Below are positions 9,565 to 61,608 of a DNA stretch of 64,000 nt, in pieces. Below the pieces are notes generated by a model that saw only the letters and a list, made by a program, of their open reading frames with translations, had not been told where the DNA came from and did no database searches. The stretch comes from Brachypterus glaber (Eukaryota; Arthropoda; Insecta; Coleoptera; Kateretidae): positions 10,021,340 through 10,085,339 of the forward strand of contig OY294050.1 of assembly GCA_958510825.1 (NCBI GenBank), read 5' to 3'. The first letter of the stretch is position 1. Each line of letters begins with the position of its first letter. Both the position numbers and the translations under genes were made by a program.

Positions 9565-10085
9565 CCAATAAGGTGGATCCTTAAAAAATATATTTTTGGG
9601 ACTCCCCCTAAATTTGTTTCAAATTATCTAAAACTATATGTAGGTACCAAACAAGTGGATAGCTCAACGTAAACACATGTCGCACCAAGTCTAGAAAAGG
9701 TGGTAGAAAATGTATTTAGGATGTAAGTATTAAGGATGTAGAATAGGGTACCAGTTAAAAATGAAAAATTTTTAAACGCGCGATTTTGAGATTAATAGGT
9801 TCCCAATAAACCCCTTATTAAAACAAAACACGTTTATTGAGCGCAACATGACCTTGAAATGTCAAAAATTGATTAAAAATTAAAATATGGCCTAAAATAT
9901 CATGCTACATGAGCTCGAGCGCCCTAATAAGTCGATATTGGACTCACCCATGTGACTTGTTTTTATTATTTTTAGAAGTTTTATCGATTTTAGTCGACCT
10001 GAATTTGGTACACATCATTTTTATAAAATTTGAAACAAATATAGGGAACGTTTAAAAAACTATTTTTTACAGACCACCCTATTGG
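9565..10085. mobile_element. TIR element just 3' of the sGC alpha extended frame
   Basis: Ends CCAATAAGGTGGATCCTTAA and its inverted partner (ACAGACCACCCTATTGG) form about 60-base TIRs including the shared TTTGTTTCAAAT. The right edge is about 22 bases from the TAA of the extended cyclase frame; it carries the distal AATAAA. Confidence 0.65.
9962..9967 (-). promoter_or_regulatory. Candidate distal polyadenylation hexamer
   Basis: AATAAA on the minus strand about 140 bases beyond the TAA that closes the extended frame, within the TIR element at 9565-10085. It is the next good hexamer that would give a transcript containing the whole extension. Confidence 0.25.
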
Positions 10086-10107: not shown

Positions 10108-10431
10108 TTATAAAGTTATACATGTAAATAAATAAATATCTGTTAATATTATTAACAACAAGAAAATTATTGCTAAAACATACCATATACATGTATCATT
10201 GACAGTCTTTGTTTTATAAGCAGTTTCTAAAACATTTTTATCTAAAACCGTGTCTTTTGAAATATCACTAATTTTTTGAATAGAATCAGATTTTTTTTCA
10301 ATAAAAGTAGATTTTTCATTTTTTTTTTCAGTTAAGGTATCATGTTTATTTTGATTTAAGCTAGATAAATCAGAATTTTTCTCATTTAACGTAGATATAT
10401 CCAGGATTATTTTTTTATCCGGTGGTGTGTC
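10108..10431 (-). CDS. In-frame 107-codon extension after the sGC alpha TGA, with C-terminal membrane segment
   Basis: Directly after the TGA, in the same frame and exon, 107 codons stay open to a TAA at 10110-10108. Residues 1-80 are polar and low in complexity: DTPPDKKIILDISTLNEKNS at the start, then Lys/Glu/Ser/Asn-rich with repeated KK and S-D motifs. Residues 81-103 form one hydrophobic helix (CIWYVLAIIFLLLIILTDIY), four or so residues from the C-terminus. In DNA this AT-rich, a frame of this length should be closed many times by chance (my rough estimate is about 1 in 10,000 to stay open). Expression would need stop-codon readthrough, a polymorphic or erroneous TGA, or an unseen splice. 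The product would be a tail-anchored cyclase subunit. I know of no animal alpha subunit with such a tail. An AATAAA at 10350-10345 inside it could instead end the mRNA early. Confidence 0.5.
   Translation of the reverse strand, partial: DTPPDKKIILDISTLNEKNSDLSSLNQNKHDTLTEKKNEKSTFIEKKSDSIQKISDISKDTVLDKNVLETAYKTKTVNDTCIWYVLAIIFLLLIILTDIYLFTCITL
10345..10350 (-). promoter_or_regulatory. Candidate polyadenylation hexamer about 80 bases after the sGC alpha TGA
   Basis: AATAAA on the minus strand, in the context CAAAATAAACATG, inside the downstream open frame. If used, the transcript would end before the membrane segment. This is a six-base motif in AT-rich DNA and can easily be chance. Confidence 0.3.
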
Positions 10432-10633
10432 TCAAATATTAAAACTAGCCTTGATCCCTATGTCGCGCAGGCCAACTTCGATGTGTTGCGCTAATTTTGC
10501 ACCTTCAGGAAGGCCGGGATGTTGGTATCCTGTTAAAAAGTGGCACGTTCCATTTATGTCGGCGGGGAAGTCCTTCGGGAGACAGGACCTGTCTCGTTGC
10601 TCGAACTGGAACCCTGGCGTATCGACTAATCTC
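10432..10633 (-). CDS. Gycalpha99B: sGC alpha, last exon up to the TGA stop
   Basis: The acceptor is TTTTATTTTCAG; the first base G completes Glu. There are 66 further codons (RLVDTPGFQFEQRDRSCLPK ... ADINGTCHFLTGYQHPGLPE ... IKASFNI) and then TGA at 10434-10432. The PGFQFEQRD, LPKDFPADI and TCHFLTGYQ blocks correspond to the last strands of the cyclase domain. The tail KLAQHIEVGLRDIGI resembles the short helix that ends insect alpha subunits, so the TGA sits where the family normally terminates. The frame does not close there: see the extension at 10108-10431. Confidence 0.94.
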
Positions 10634-10661: not shown

Positions 10662-10800
10662 CAGTGGGCTCAAAAAGTTACCCTCTTAACTTTTAAAAGA
10701 TTTGAGATATCGAATTCAAATTTGGAATTCGTAAAAAGGATAAACTTTCCTTTTGGGGTCACGTGATACATCATTATAAAACAAATTAAATTCTCTATTT
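10662..10800. repeat. Family B foldback arm
   Basis: CAGTGGGCTCAAAAAGTTAC then CCTCTTAACTTTTAAAAGAT, TTGAGATATCGA, and GGGGTCACGTGATACATCAT: the arm of the 13957-14673 element, 28 bases upstream of the last sGC exon. Confidence 0.55.
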
Positions 10801-11946
10801 AATATATTTTTGTTTGTTACATATTACTATCTCTTTTAACAACTAAGAAATATCAAGTTTTCCAACATCAAAAATCAGAAAACTTCAAATTTGGGAGTGG
10901 TCATTGGGAAGCAATATAAAAATGAAAAAAAGTTGTTTGGAGTAAATATAGGTTTAACAACACAATAAAAAATTAATTTATTTGGAAGTGGTCGAGCTCT
11001 CAAATAATTGAAAATTGGTCGGTTTTCAATGGATTGCGTTAGTAGTCTTTTTTGTTCTGCGGATAATTTTTTCAAATTTTGTTCAATTTATTCCTTTATA
11101 AGCGAGATACCCTAGTTAGTTTGCTCAAGAATAAAGTCGACGATTTTTTTTTTGTTTTTCTTTTTTTTTTTGAGGACAGTCGCGCACACTTTACCCCTAC
11201 TTTCGCGAGGGGGCAGTATGTTGTCTATTTCTTGAGTAAATCTGGCTCGACCATGTATGTACTATATATCTCGAAGGTAGTAATAAAAATTATTAATTAT
11301 ATTATCATACAATGTTATATTTTATAAGAATTTTAAATTAAATTATATTATAGATAAAATTTGCATATGATGTTATGAATTTAAATTATAAACCATCTAA
11401 TTGTATTATTGTAGCGCAACATAGCCCAATTTCCCTACTCAACATTTTATTACCCGTGTCTAATTCTCGTCTATATGCATACAGACACCCCTGGCGAAAA
11501 ATTTAAACTTTTAAGTTCATTGGTCCGAAACTTTTAACCACTTTTCCTGCTAAGATCAAATATAAATGCAAGTCGCATGCTATTGGAACAAAAAACTTTT
11601 TACTCAGGTAATATATTTTATTAGGCAAAACAGTTAAACTATGTAGAAGTTAATTTTTAGGTGGGTAAAACTAATAGAAATTAAGAAATTCTTGATCCTT
11701 ACTCATATTGGAGTTGATTTAAATAAACCATAGAAAATTTGGAGAGATAACATTTTTTCTATGGTTTAATATGTAATTGATTTTTTAAAAAACATTTAAC
11801 TATAGGCATATTTTGTTTAAAGACTAATTAACTGCCCAATTAAAAATAAAATTTTAACCACGTAAAATCTCATAAAACCTGTTACATAATCTGACTTGAA
11901 CCACGTAAAAGTCCAAATTTTACGTGGTTTGGACTTTTATTATTAT

Positions 11947-18518: not shown

Positions 18519-18673
18519 TCATATGTAGTTGGGCTGACATTTATCCTCAAGGGCTCACTTCCGGATTCAAATTTATTAGCAATAGTGACGTTATGTCCAA
18601 ACATGCAATATCTGGGCATTTTAACGCCCACGACGCCTGCCAGAACTGATCCCGTGTGAATTCCTATACGCAT
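18519..18673 (-). CDS. Gycalpha99B: sGC alpha, visible exon 7: catalytic core
   Basis: This exon is 51 codons plus two bases. The acceptor is GGTTGCAG and the donor GTAAGTATT. The peptide begins [20 protein letters not shown] and continues [31 protein letters not shown]. The [11 protein letters not shown] loop and VTIANKFES helix are hallmarks of the soluble cyclase catalytic domain; INVSPTT is typical of alpha. The trailing GA pairs with the G opening the last exon to give Glu. Only 1.45 kb separates it from exon 6. Confidence 0.97.
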
Positions 18674-20127: not shown

Positions 20128-20271
20128 CCTGATTGGCTGCCCCTGATGCGTTTGATGTTTCGTACACGTGTCAATCATCATCATAGCCATCCAAGAGATT
20201 TGATGAGTGTGCGTAGAAGTTTCCTTGTGGAGTCCTCCGGCTACGCAATATGCGTCACCGATCGTCTCCAC
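20128..20271 (-). CDS. Gycalpha99B: sGC alpha, visible exon 6: catalytic core with second metal-binding Asp
   Basis: This exon is exactly 48 codons, phase 0 at both ends. The acceptor is TTGTTCTAG and the donor GTAAGTTTAG. It begins VETIGDAYCVAGGLHKE, the class III cyclase signature; the Asp of GDAYC is the second metal ligand supplied by alpha. It continues QISWMAMMMIDTCTKH and ends GQPIR, joining [17 protein letters not shown] matches the alpha-type helix. A degenerate 120-base repeat (19958-20079) ends about 50 bases after the donor. Confidence 0.97.
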
Positions 20272-29743: not shown

Positions 29744-29908
29744 CTTATAGACATCGATTTGCCGCAAAATAAGTCAACTGGCTGTAGAGATTCTCCAGCA
29801 TATTTATCACCATCATGGGCGTCGCTGTCGAGCATATTGATGTGAAGCCTACTATGTCGCTAAATAACATCGTCACGTCTTCGTGGGTTTTAGCCTCGAT
29901 TGTCTCTC
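29744..29908 (-). CDS. Gycalpha99B: sGC alpha, visible exon 5: first catalytic exon, with a frame break
   Basis: The acceptor is TTTTATCCAG and the donor GTAAGGAAC. The first two bases complete Gly; then ETIEAKTHEDVTMLFSDIVG and FTSICSTATPMMVINMLENL YSQ read cleanly. SDIVGFT carries the first metal-binding Asp. After the SQ codons the frame breaks. The end of the exon clearly encodes QIDVYK (joining VETIGDAYC of the next exon) in another frame, while the initial frame runs to a TAA at the exon end. The exon is 165 bases where about 167 are needed, fitting two one-base losses, probably near CAGTTGAC and GCGGCAAA. If real, the protein would lose most of the catalytic domain; if an assembly error, the gene is intact. 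I favour error because every other exon is in frame, but cannot prove it. Confidence 0.9.
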
Positions 29909-32067: not shown

Positions 32068-32650
32068 AACGCAAAGCATCTGCTGGTCAGGCCTCGCTCG
32101 TATCTCCAACTTTACGAGCAGGTGAGCCAGCAAAACCAATGACTACTCCACACACCGTGAGGTAAGTAATTATTGGGTCCGATTGTCATGAGCTCCGACT
32201 ATATTCAGTGATCCCAGAATAACGGCCTTCTGCATATTTCCGGATAAGAGCTTTGCTCTTTTGGAGCATGCCGGTATGGTCTTAAGTGCAGAGAGAAATG
32301 TTTGCCTTGTACCACCAAGAGAACCAGTAATGAGGACCACAAGCTTAACAGAATAACCCGGGTTGAGCCTACGGAGTTCAAAAAGCAGGTCTTGATATTT
32401 CGTCCGTTTTTCCTCCTCTTTTAAGACTATGTTCGTTTCGGCAGGAGCCGAGAATTCAATAACGAACATTGTCTTAAGATCTTTATCGAGGAGGACTACA
32501 TCAGGCTTATTGAATATTATTTGCCTAGGGTGGTGAATGAGTAGTTCCAATAAATTCGGCACCTCTCATTCTCTACAACGGACTCAATATCGTCTGGAGC
32601 ATAGGGCAGTACGGGTGTATCGTCAATACCGTAAGAGTGCTTTAGGTGAA
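32068..32650 (-). pseudogene. Non-LTR retrotransposon C-terminal endonuclease fragment, frameshifted
   Basis: Minus-strand frame 32562-32170 reads KPDVVLLDKDLKTMFVIEFS then APAETNIVLKEEEKRTKYQD and VKLVVLITGSLGG, resembling the restriction-like (PD-D/ExK) endonuclease end of R2/NeSL-type LINE polyproteins. Upstream (to about 32650) the matching peptide KHSYGIDDTPVLPYAPDDIE followed by VVENERCRIYW continues in another frame, so a frameshift lies near 32530. After the stop a short 3' UTR leads to an A-rich/(TAA)n tail at about 32045-32070, as expected of target-primed insertion. It is 5' truncated with no reverse transcriptase left; inactive. An (ATT)n tract borders the 5' side (32667-32698). 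Confidence 0.6.
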
Positions 32651-33043: not shown

Positions 33044-33182
33044 CAAGCCACAGCCGTTTCGCAATGTCCGGCGGAAATATCAGATGTAAAAGGCTGACAT
33101 TTTTTTCTCGTTCCTTGTCCACAGCCCTGTTTCCTTCCTCGATCGAACTTTTCAGTTTATCCATGCGTCTCCTTAATCCATC
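33044..33182 (-). CDS. Gycalpha99B: sGC alpha, visible exon 4: signalling coiled coil
   Basis: This exon is 46 codons plus one base. The acceptor is TTTTTCAG and the donor GTAAGAAT, ending in phase 1 (the G of a Gly codon completed by the next exon). The peptide starts DGLRRRMDKLKSSIEEGNRA and ends LLHLIFPPDIAKRLWLG. The first 30 residues form the charged, heptad-patterned dimerisation helix that links HNOBA to the cyclase domain; LLHLIFPPDIAKRLW is the conserved junction that begins the catalytic domain in all class III soluble cyclases. Confidence 0.95.
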
Positions 33183-39708: not shown

Positions 39709-39888
39709 CTGTGCTCTGGCCTGCTCTCCAACTAGGATCACGTCCCTGGTCGCATCATGAAGAGGAATGTCGGAGATGAAGAGTCCACTCCCGGTGAGTC
39801 CCTCCAGGCCGTCGATAAATGGAGACCCGATAAATAATATGGAGTCGGATTCGGGACAGTACACCATTTGTCCTTTCAATGCTAGACC
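39709..39888 (-). CDS. Gycalpha99B: sGC alpha, visible exon 3: C-terminal half of HNOBA
   Basis: This exon is exactly 60 codons, phase 0 at both ends. The acceptor is TTTTGTTGCAG; the donor is GTGGGTTGG, the weakest in the gene. It begins [20 protein letters not shown] and continues through a [13 protein letters not shown] segment to [20 protein letters not shown] and QARAQ. The [11 protein letters not shown] block is among the best conserved stretches in soluble cyclases; the following Q(A)RAQ leads into the signalling helix. GC content is clearly above the surrounding intron, as expected of constrained coding sequence. It lies about 13 kb from exon 2 and 6.5 kb from exon 4. Confidence 0.96.
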
Positions 39889-53221: not shown

Positions 53222-53576
53222 CTTGGCCACAAAGTTTGCATCATCCGACAAGGATTTTATCGCCAAGACAAAAGGCGTATTGGCTCTCTTAATAATTTCA
53301 GAAAAACTCAAATTTATATTTCTCGGCCTTTGGAATTCAAAATACGTTGAAACGGCGGTACCACAAAGCTTCAAAAAGTTTCCAAATAGTCTCATGAAAC
53401 CAGAACCAAGTTGCACTAGCTCCATTCGACGATCTATGATAAAATGCCACGGAAATGCTTTGCAGAAGGTGACTACGCCCATTTGCACGTCCGAAACGTT
53501 GTCCGAATAAGCCTTTTCTTTGGCGAGGTCCGAAACGTGTGAGTTCGTTTGGTTGAAAATCTTATTAATGTTGTAA
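53222..53576 (-). CDS. Gycalpha99B: sGC alpha, visible exon 2: end of HNOB linker and start of HNOBA (PAS-like)
   Basis: The acceptor is TTTATTTTCAG and the donor is GTAAGTTTA after GCCAAG, so the exon ends in phase 0. Its first base T completes the AG from the previous exon (Ser), followed by YNINKIFNQTNSHVSDLAKE. It encodes 118 whole codons. GVVTFCKAFPWHFIIDRRME followed by LVQLGSGFMRLFG is the signature start of the HNOBA domain (TFCKAFP with hydrophobic PAS strands); PRNINLSFSEIIKRANTPFV matches its middle. HNOBA mediates alpha/beta heterodimer contacts and transmits the heme signal (family knowledge). No frame break is seen. The plus-strand open frame over the same interval is a shadow. 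Confidence 0.95.
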
Positions 53577-61253: not shown

Positions 61254-61608
61254 CTATAATGTAAACTATCTGCACTAGTGTTGATTGTTACTTCAGCATC
61301 TGTGCTATATAAAATTTTTGCTATTGCTTTCAGGCTACCAACTAACAAAAATGCAACAGCGGGTCTCTCCGTGGTAAAGTCCAGTTGTAAACTGTCAAAA
61401 CCCGTCGAACTACATGCAAAAGCTTCGGTTTCGTTTACATCAGTTTCATTTTCCTGGTACTTGAGGACATCGTGTACTCCGTCAAGTGTGGTCAAAAACT
61501 CCTGAAGGTCACCACCCAAGCAGCGGAAAGCTCGTTCCATGCGTCCGGAACATGATGTGGAAATTAATTCTTGGCCTAGTTTGTCTAAGAATGTTTTGTG
61601 GTCTTTAC
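61254..61608 (-). CDS. Gycalpha99B: sGC alpha, visible exon 1: C-terminal part of HNOB domain
   Basis: This exon gives 117 whole codons. The acceptor is a long T tract plus CAG (AG at 61609-61610) and the donor is GTAAGAAT after TTACATTATAG. It opens with two bases of a split codon (phase 1) and ends with two bases (AG). The translation contains RAFRCLGGDLQEFLTTLDGV and RPAVAFLLVGSLKAIAKILY, which I recognise as the second half of the HNOB (heme-NO-binding) fold of alpha subunits. In alpha subunits this domain does not carry the heme ligand but contributes to dimerisation and signal relay (family knowledge). The stretch between these blocks (KYQENETDVNETEAFACSST) is acidic and is probably the variable loop. 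The upstream exon(s), with the first part of HNOB, are not in the window. Confidence 0.93.

Follow-up and report, generated by a model that had tools for sequence, protein, structure and literature searches.

Does the open reading frame that continues for 107 codons beyond the stop codon of a guanylyl cyclase gene in the beetle Brachypterus glaber belong to that gene, and, if it does, how would ribosomes reach it? The locus lies in a 64,000-nucleotide stretch of contig OY294050.1 (positions 10,021,340 to 10,085,339), here called the window, to which all coordinates below refer unless a contig is named.

The cyclase gene and its usual stop

The minus strand of the window carries, between 61608 and 10432, eight exons of the gene for the alpha subunit of the NO-sensitive guanylyl cyclase (sGC alpha). 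Seven were placed by tblastn, with the protein P0001 as query for the first, together with splice sites: E1 (61254..61608), from the N-terminal half of the protein; E2 (53222..53576); E3 (39709..39888); E4 (33044..33182), with the linker and the start of the catalytic region; and E5 (29744..29908), E6 (20128..20271) and E7 (18519..18673), all within the catalytic domain, E7 ending with two left-over bases of a codon (GA). The last exon, E8 (10432..10633), whose C-terminus was compared with those of relatives, holds the canonical C-terminus and a TGA at 10434-10432. The 5' exons lie past the end of the window: when the beetle's own genome was searched (a 648-Mb assembly, as in all own-genome searches here), residues 1-60 of P0001 matched C15:10126035-10126211, outside the window, and residues 61-114 had no match anywhere. 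The best protein match of the exons was P0001 itself, from Aethina tumida (84% identity over 52% of the query). The matches are 'head-specific guanylate cyclase' proteins, and 30 of the 31 best listed carry a species name, all of which we take to be beetles. Orthology to the NO-sensitive cyclase alpha is indicated by matches in both the catalytic and the upstream domains; the eight exons match the known subunit (Manduca alpha-1, PDB 6pas), the usual C-terminus is present, and cyclase matches away from this locus in the same genome were at most 50% identical.

The last exon ends ...GLRDIGIKASFNI, directly followed by the TGA. For comparison, the best 120 of 3201 protein matches were aligned on a TCHFL-like motif, which is present in 118 of them (P0065 and P0083, in which the pattern did not match, were omitted). 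From the start of this motif to the C-terminus there are 38 residues in B. glaber and 32-53 in the 118 homologues, 49 of which have 36, and the end KADLSI of Phaedon cochleariae corresponds to KASFNI here. None of these 118 homologues has a hydrophobic stretch past the motif, the highest 19-residue hydropathy in that part being 1.24 as against 2.68 in the frame beyond the TGA, and none has a hydrophobic C-terminal extension. Judged by its position, the TGA is the usual end of sGC alpha, so that whatever follows it appears to have been added after an old stop.

An open and coding-like frame beyond the stop

As the sequence-only reading of this DNA had stated, the cyclase frame stays open for 107 codons past the TGA (10111..10431, minus strand; hereafter the tail) and closes with a TAA at 10108..10110. 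The other two minus-strand frames contain 12 and 15 stops in 106 codons over the same stretch, the G+C content of which is 0.23. Among 20,000 dinucleotide shuffles of the tail, which had a mean of 10.4 in-frame stops, not one was free of them, in line with the earlier estimate that chance openness is very unlikely. When each codon position was shuffled separately, 31 of 100,000 sequences were open, and stretches drawn from Markov models were open in 8 of 20,000 cases (order 3, local) and 2 of 20,000 (order 2, trained on the tail). In 200 kb of control DNA from elsewhere in the genome, 52 of 26,986 inter-stop runs reached at least 107 codons, eight of them with a G+C content no higher than 0.30 and none with one of 0.25 or below. 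Within the window the figure was 15 of 8770 runs, the tail included, and several of these overlap cyclase exons.

The base composition of the tail also varies with codon position, a coding measure that was absent from the sequence-only reading and that strengthens its observation. Over positions 1, 2 and 3 there are 22, 5 and 9 G and 6, 24 and 7 C, and an excess of G at the first and C at the second position is the usual pattern of coding DNA. The corresponding chi-square (nucleotide by codon position, a single-species composition statistic of our own and not the published Z curve) is 34.4, the highest among the 273 open runs of at least 50 codons in the window, and was reached by none and by two of 4000 simulated runs, in two sets already conditioned to be open. 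Both excesses are seen in the first, second and third quarters alike, including the first 26 codons after the TGA; the hydrophobic last quarter has the C excess only. In the 318 bases past the TAA the chi-squares fall to 5.7-6.6, and the excess is reversed in the cyclase frame. The seven cyclase exons that were scored gave only 7.2-21.1, with the last exon lowest, so that the measure is not a clean one for coding and the higher value of the tail may be partly compositional. Codon use in the tail differs from that of its host gene, as seen from a GC3 of 0.15 compared to 0.36-0.55 in six cyclase exons. Taken together, the openness, the codon-position bias and its rarity in simulations make it probable that the tail codes for protein in the frame of the cyclase, or did so until recently.

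Translated, the first 75-80 or so residues of the tail are polar and the end is hydrophobic, as had been described before. The best 19-residue Kyte-Doolittle window (2.68) covers residues 81-99 of the 107, windows above 1.6 begin only at residues 76-89, and the hydrophobic segment as a whole (residues 81-107, 10111..10191) is like a tail anchor. Tail-anchored proteins as a class have a single hydrophobic segment right at the C-terminal end; the cyclase tail likewise has its only strong segment there, although in this case the anchor is a predicted one and would be found only in a minority isoform. The statistics of a single genome thus support the earlier reading of the extension as coding and laid out like a tail-anchored protein.

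Relatives of the tail were sought in several ways. No homologous protein was found at E <=10 among 377 candidates of about 266-845 aa or among 31 of about 59-187 aa, in searches that depend on shared 5-residue words and can miss distant or low-complexity relatives. Pfam gave three matches below threshold, the best being MDFI (12.9 bits with a cut-off of 27). A protein search of the genome for a second copy (E <=10, eight of eight candidates scored) found none, and a wider DNA query that included the tail gave 43 other matches (40 of 1605 candidates scored), all of them to query positions 149-405, an intron repeat. The tail looks to be lineage-specific, or to be evolving too fast to be traced by searches of this kind.

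Joining the tail to the cyclase

None of the 107 codons of the tail is an ATG, so that the tail would need a coding partner upstream, and the cyclase lies directly before it in the same frame. Of the ways in which the two could be joined, we rate readthrough of the TGA highest, with splicing out of the TGA as its main rival. The stop lies in the context AUU-UGA-GAC, and the G that follows it had already been pointed out in the earlier reading. This is not the enriched base: C follows the stop in 49-63% of readthrough candidates from fly and mosquito, according to the available excerpt of PMC5100048. Nor is the RNA downstream unusual in its folding, the one 109-nt stretch that was folded having a z of -1.29, with 24 of 200 shuffles as stable. 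A leaky context and RNA structure are features enriched in known cases of readthrough and are not absolute requirements. A product of this sort, in which readthrough adds a tail, would be of a kind already known. PMC5100048 also describes readthrough as abundant in most insects tested by a single-genome method, and among the Drosophila readthrough extensions of Dunn et al. (PMC3840789), as far as the accessible part of that paper goes, eight have predicted transmembrane domains. Of the original proposal, then, a coding tail is supported, and joining by readthrough stays the simplest account, with both stop context and fold unfavourable to it.

Two other means of decoding the TGA were considered. 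For selenocysteine, neither a SECIS element nor any other Rfam match was found within the window at the gathering threshold. A-to-I editing would turn TGA into TGG, but the base before the A is a G, and ADAR enzymes disfavour G before the edited A.

Alternative splicing could make the tail an ordinary alternative C-terminus, either by an in-frame intron within the last exon or by use of an acceptor at 10361 for the splice from exon 7, and we consider it unlikely. Opportunities are not lacking, as 65 donor-acceptor pairs (28 GT-AG and 37 GC-AG) in the last exon and tail keep the frame and remove the TGA. However, every in-frame pair scores below the true sites of sGC alpha: in none of the 65 do both sites exceed 2.3 on a matrix made from the sGC alpha introns, which rests on only 7 donors and 8 acceptors, while the true sites, each left out in turn, gave 3.2-11.1 (donors) and 4.3-13.6 (acceptors). 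The shortest GT-AG pair listed is a possible intron of 72 nt (10431..10502; first base 10502, last 10431) with the donor AAG/GTGCAA and the acceptor ATATTTGAG/AC (slashes mark the exon boundaries), the latter placed precisely where the open tail begins. Its use would join ...GLPE to DTPPDKK.... Its scores of 2.3 and 1.9 are both under those of every left-out true site, and sites at least as good were found at 49 of 334 GT and 35 of 315 AG examined in introns. It also differs from all sGC alpha sites in having a G at -3 of the acceptor and in lacking a G at +5 of the donor. The acceptor at 10361 (score 2.4) is in phase with exon 7, but a splice to it would delete the part of the catalytic domain encoded by the last exon and would leave the first 23 coding-like codons of the tail unexplained. 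The sequence-only reading had correctly judged the AG right after the TGA to be out of phase from exon 7, and this AG is absent among the acceptors in phase with that exon; both the in-frame 72-nt pair and the acceptor at 10361 had escaped it.

Signals for the 3' end of the message are present on either side of the tail stop. The AATAAA noted earlier at 10350 lies inside the tail (10345..10350), and no GT-rich stretch occurs in the 45 bases shown for it. A second AATAAA, past the tail stop (9962..9967), is followed by a stretch containing G and T. It is a candidate 3' end that would allow an mRNA including the tail.

Chance, a second gene or an altered stop

The tail may do nothing, being a chance open frame in an AT-rich 3' UTR or an untranslated relic of coding sequence; this too we judge unlikely, and so is pure chance, which had been listed earlier as an alternative. 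Openness and codon-position signature each fall far outside the null models. Several points do favour it. Many open runs were scanned before the tail was picked, and imperfect tandem repeats in the tail (10272..10352, minus strand, about two copies each) have periods of 21 and 30 nt, each divisible by three, and could help to keep the frame open. The repeats could also inflate the chi-square, but with their span removed the remaining 79 codons still gave 23.8, a value reached by only 24 of 10,000 simulations. In the control DNA two of eight AT-rich long runs exceeded 34.4, one of them a gene-like, coiled-coil-like frame of 567 codons and the other a frame that is in part of low complexity. Very high chi-squares were also found there for trinucleotide repeats, which again allows for a compositional part in a score above those of the true exons. 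Hydrophobic stretches come cheaply in AT-rich open frames: in two simulated sets, each of 4000 open runs, 558 and 465 had a 19-mer somewhere with a Kyte-Doolittle value of at least 2.0. A single stretch restricted to the end was seen in 101 and 84 runs of these sets, and a terminal one as strong as that of the tail in 8 and 7. The tail-anchor layout consequently adds modest support. A further point against an inert tail is that the protein search of the genome found no copy that could have been its source.

A tail that belongs to some other gene is improbable. It would be the terminal exon of an unrecognised gene on the same strand, overlapping the 3' end of the cyclase and sharing its frame by chance. 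Such a gene would supply the upstream partner that a coding-like tail with no ATG needs, and agrees with the failure to find a homologue of the tail and with the acceptor-like AG at its start. It would, however, have to fall into the right frame (one chance in three) and begin its exon exactly at the cyclase stop, with an acceptor that is weak, and the intron preceding the last cyclase exon (10.66-18.5 kb) has no minus-strand run of at least 50 codons among the top-ranked coding-like runs listed.

Least probable of all is a constitutive tail, with a sense codon in the true allele and the TGA due to misassembly or polymorphism. The TGA lies where sGC alpha usually ends and where the relatives examined stop too, and a loss of the sense codon, as the earlier reading had allowed for, is accordingly disfavoured. 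The one point in favour of a constitutive tail is that the assembly may be imperfect. Near the 3' end of exon E5 (29908-29744) two bases are missing from the conserved LYSQFDxFCGQxDVYK frame, the conserved FDxFCGQxDVYK at 29744-29777 on the minus strand having 34 bases where 36 are expected, and as assembled the exon runs into a stop, which leaves the gene frameshifted before the catalytic domain ends. This is possibly due to base-loss errors in the assembly, or else to a real lesion in a damaged allele. The differences in E5 are losses of bases, whereas a constitutive tail would call for an erroneous substitution at the TGA. If the TTT ahead of the TGA were one base longer or shorter, a new stop would follow 6 or 8 codons on, and the cyclase would still not be connected to the tail. 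A run of seven A follows the fifth codon of the tail, and a change of frame could be hidden there.

A putative membrane-anchored cyclase

The explanation we regard as best, and to which we give about an even chance of being right, is that the tail is a coding, lineage-specific extension of sGC alpha, translated by minority readthrough of the UGA and tail-anchored, giving a local membrane pool of the enzyme. A minority of ribosomes would read through the UGA and translate the 107 codons in the cyclase frame, adding a polar and probably disordered linker of about 80 residues and one terminal hydrophobic segment. The longer isoform would then be inserted into a membrane after translation, as a tail-anchored protein, and would keep some of the alpha/beta heterodimer on an internal membrane, with the normal product remaining in the cytosol. 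Some copies of sGC alpha may thus be made with a membrane anchor; readthrough as the joining route, membrane insertion and local cGMP are inferred. A broader proposal, more tentative and somewhat less likely than an even chance would make it, is that a tail anchor arose in a beetle lineage from the 3' UTR after the ancestral stop and brings a regulated fraction of the NO receptor cyclase to an internal membrane, and that the leakiness of the UGA sets the ratio of cytosolic to membrane NO sensor.

The arrangement resembles readthrough extensions of Drosophila and Anopheles, in which, going by the available portions of PMC5100048 and PMC3840789, the first stop is often TGA and a coding-like frame runs on to a second stop. 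Those extensions are supported there by comparative data or ribosome profiling, whereas the one described here comes from a single beetle genome and has a G after its TGA. A search of open-licence papers found none that joined soluble guanylyl cyclase with tail-anchored proteins, and those listed for guanylyl cyclase with readthrough looked unrelated, judging by title and the start of the abstract.

Placement at membranes has precedent in mammals. According to the accessible part of PMC9914232, the alpha2/beta1 cyclase is held at synaptic membranes via the C-terminus of alpha2 and PSD-95, and the membrane-associated NO-sensitive enzyme responds more sensitively when the dose of NO donor is low. 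On that description of a mammalian cyclase at membranes, it is plausible that the beetle has a minor pool of NO receptor on membranes. In both cases the C-terminus of an alpha subunit would determine the membrane placement, but in alpha2 this involves a protein-protein contact of the normal C-terminus (again from the available text of PMC9914232), and in the beetle the proposal is of a hydrophobic anchor carried by an extension that is optional. The location of NO-sensitive cyclase may shape which pool of cGMP is fed. If the proposal is true, membrane-bound and cytosolic cyclase would be separated by one stop codon, and the question could be tested in an insect by changing that single codon. 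It would also mean a long and apparently recent readthrough extension in a beetle; the one beetle named in the excerpt of PMC5100048, Tribolium (T. castaneum), was not scored there as readthrough-abundant, possibly through incomplete annotation.

Other features of the locus and control DNA

Three further features were seen in passing. In the control DNA, locus L023 (G000:C15:30000001-30010000) has, at about 0.5-7.5 kb on its plus strand, a series of Glu/Lys-rich, coiled-coil-like frames of up to 567 codons with 30% G+C, which are probably exons of a large coiled-coil protein. Within a cyclase intron, the minus strand at 32173-32565 contains an open frame of 131 codons with readable, protein-like sequence, possibly a piece of a protein from a mobile element. 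The intron 5' of the last cyclase exon includes a repeat of about 225 bases (10796-11052, minus strand) that is matched at 72-92% identity by at least 43 further places in the genome (40 of 1605 candidates scored), some copies of which lie less than 1 kb apart, in the same or in opposite orientation.
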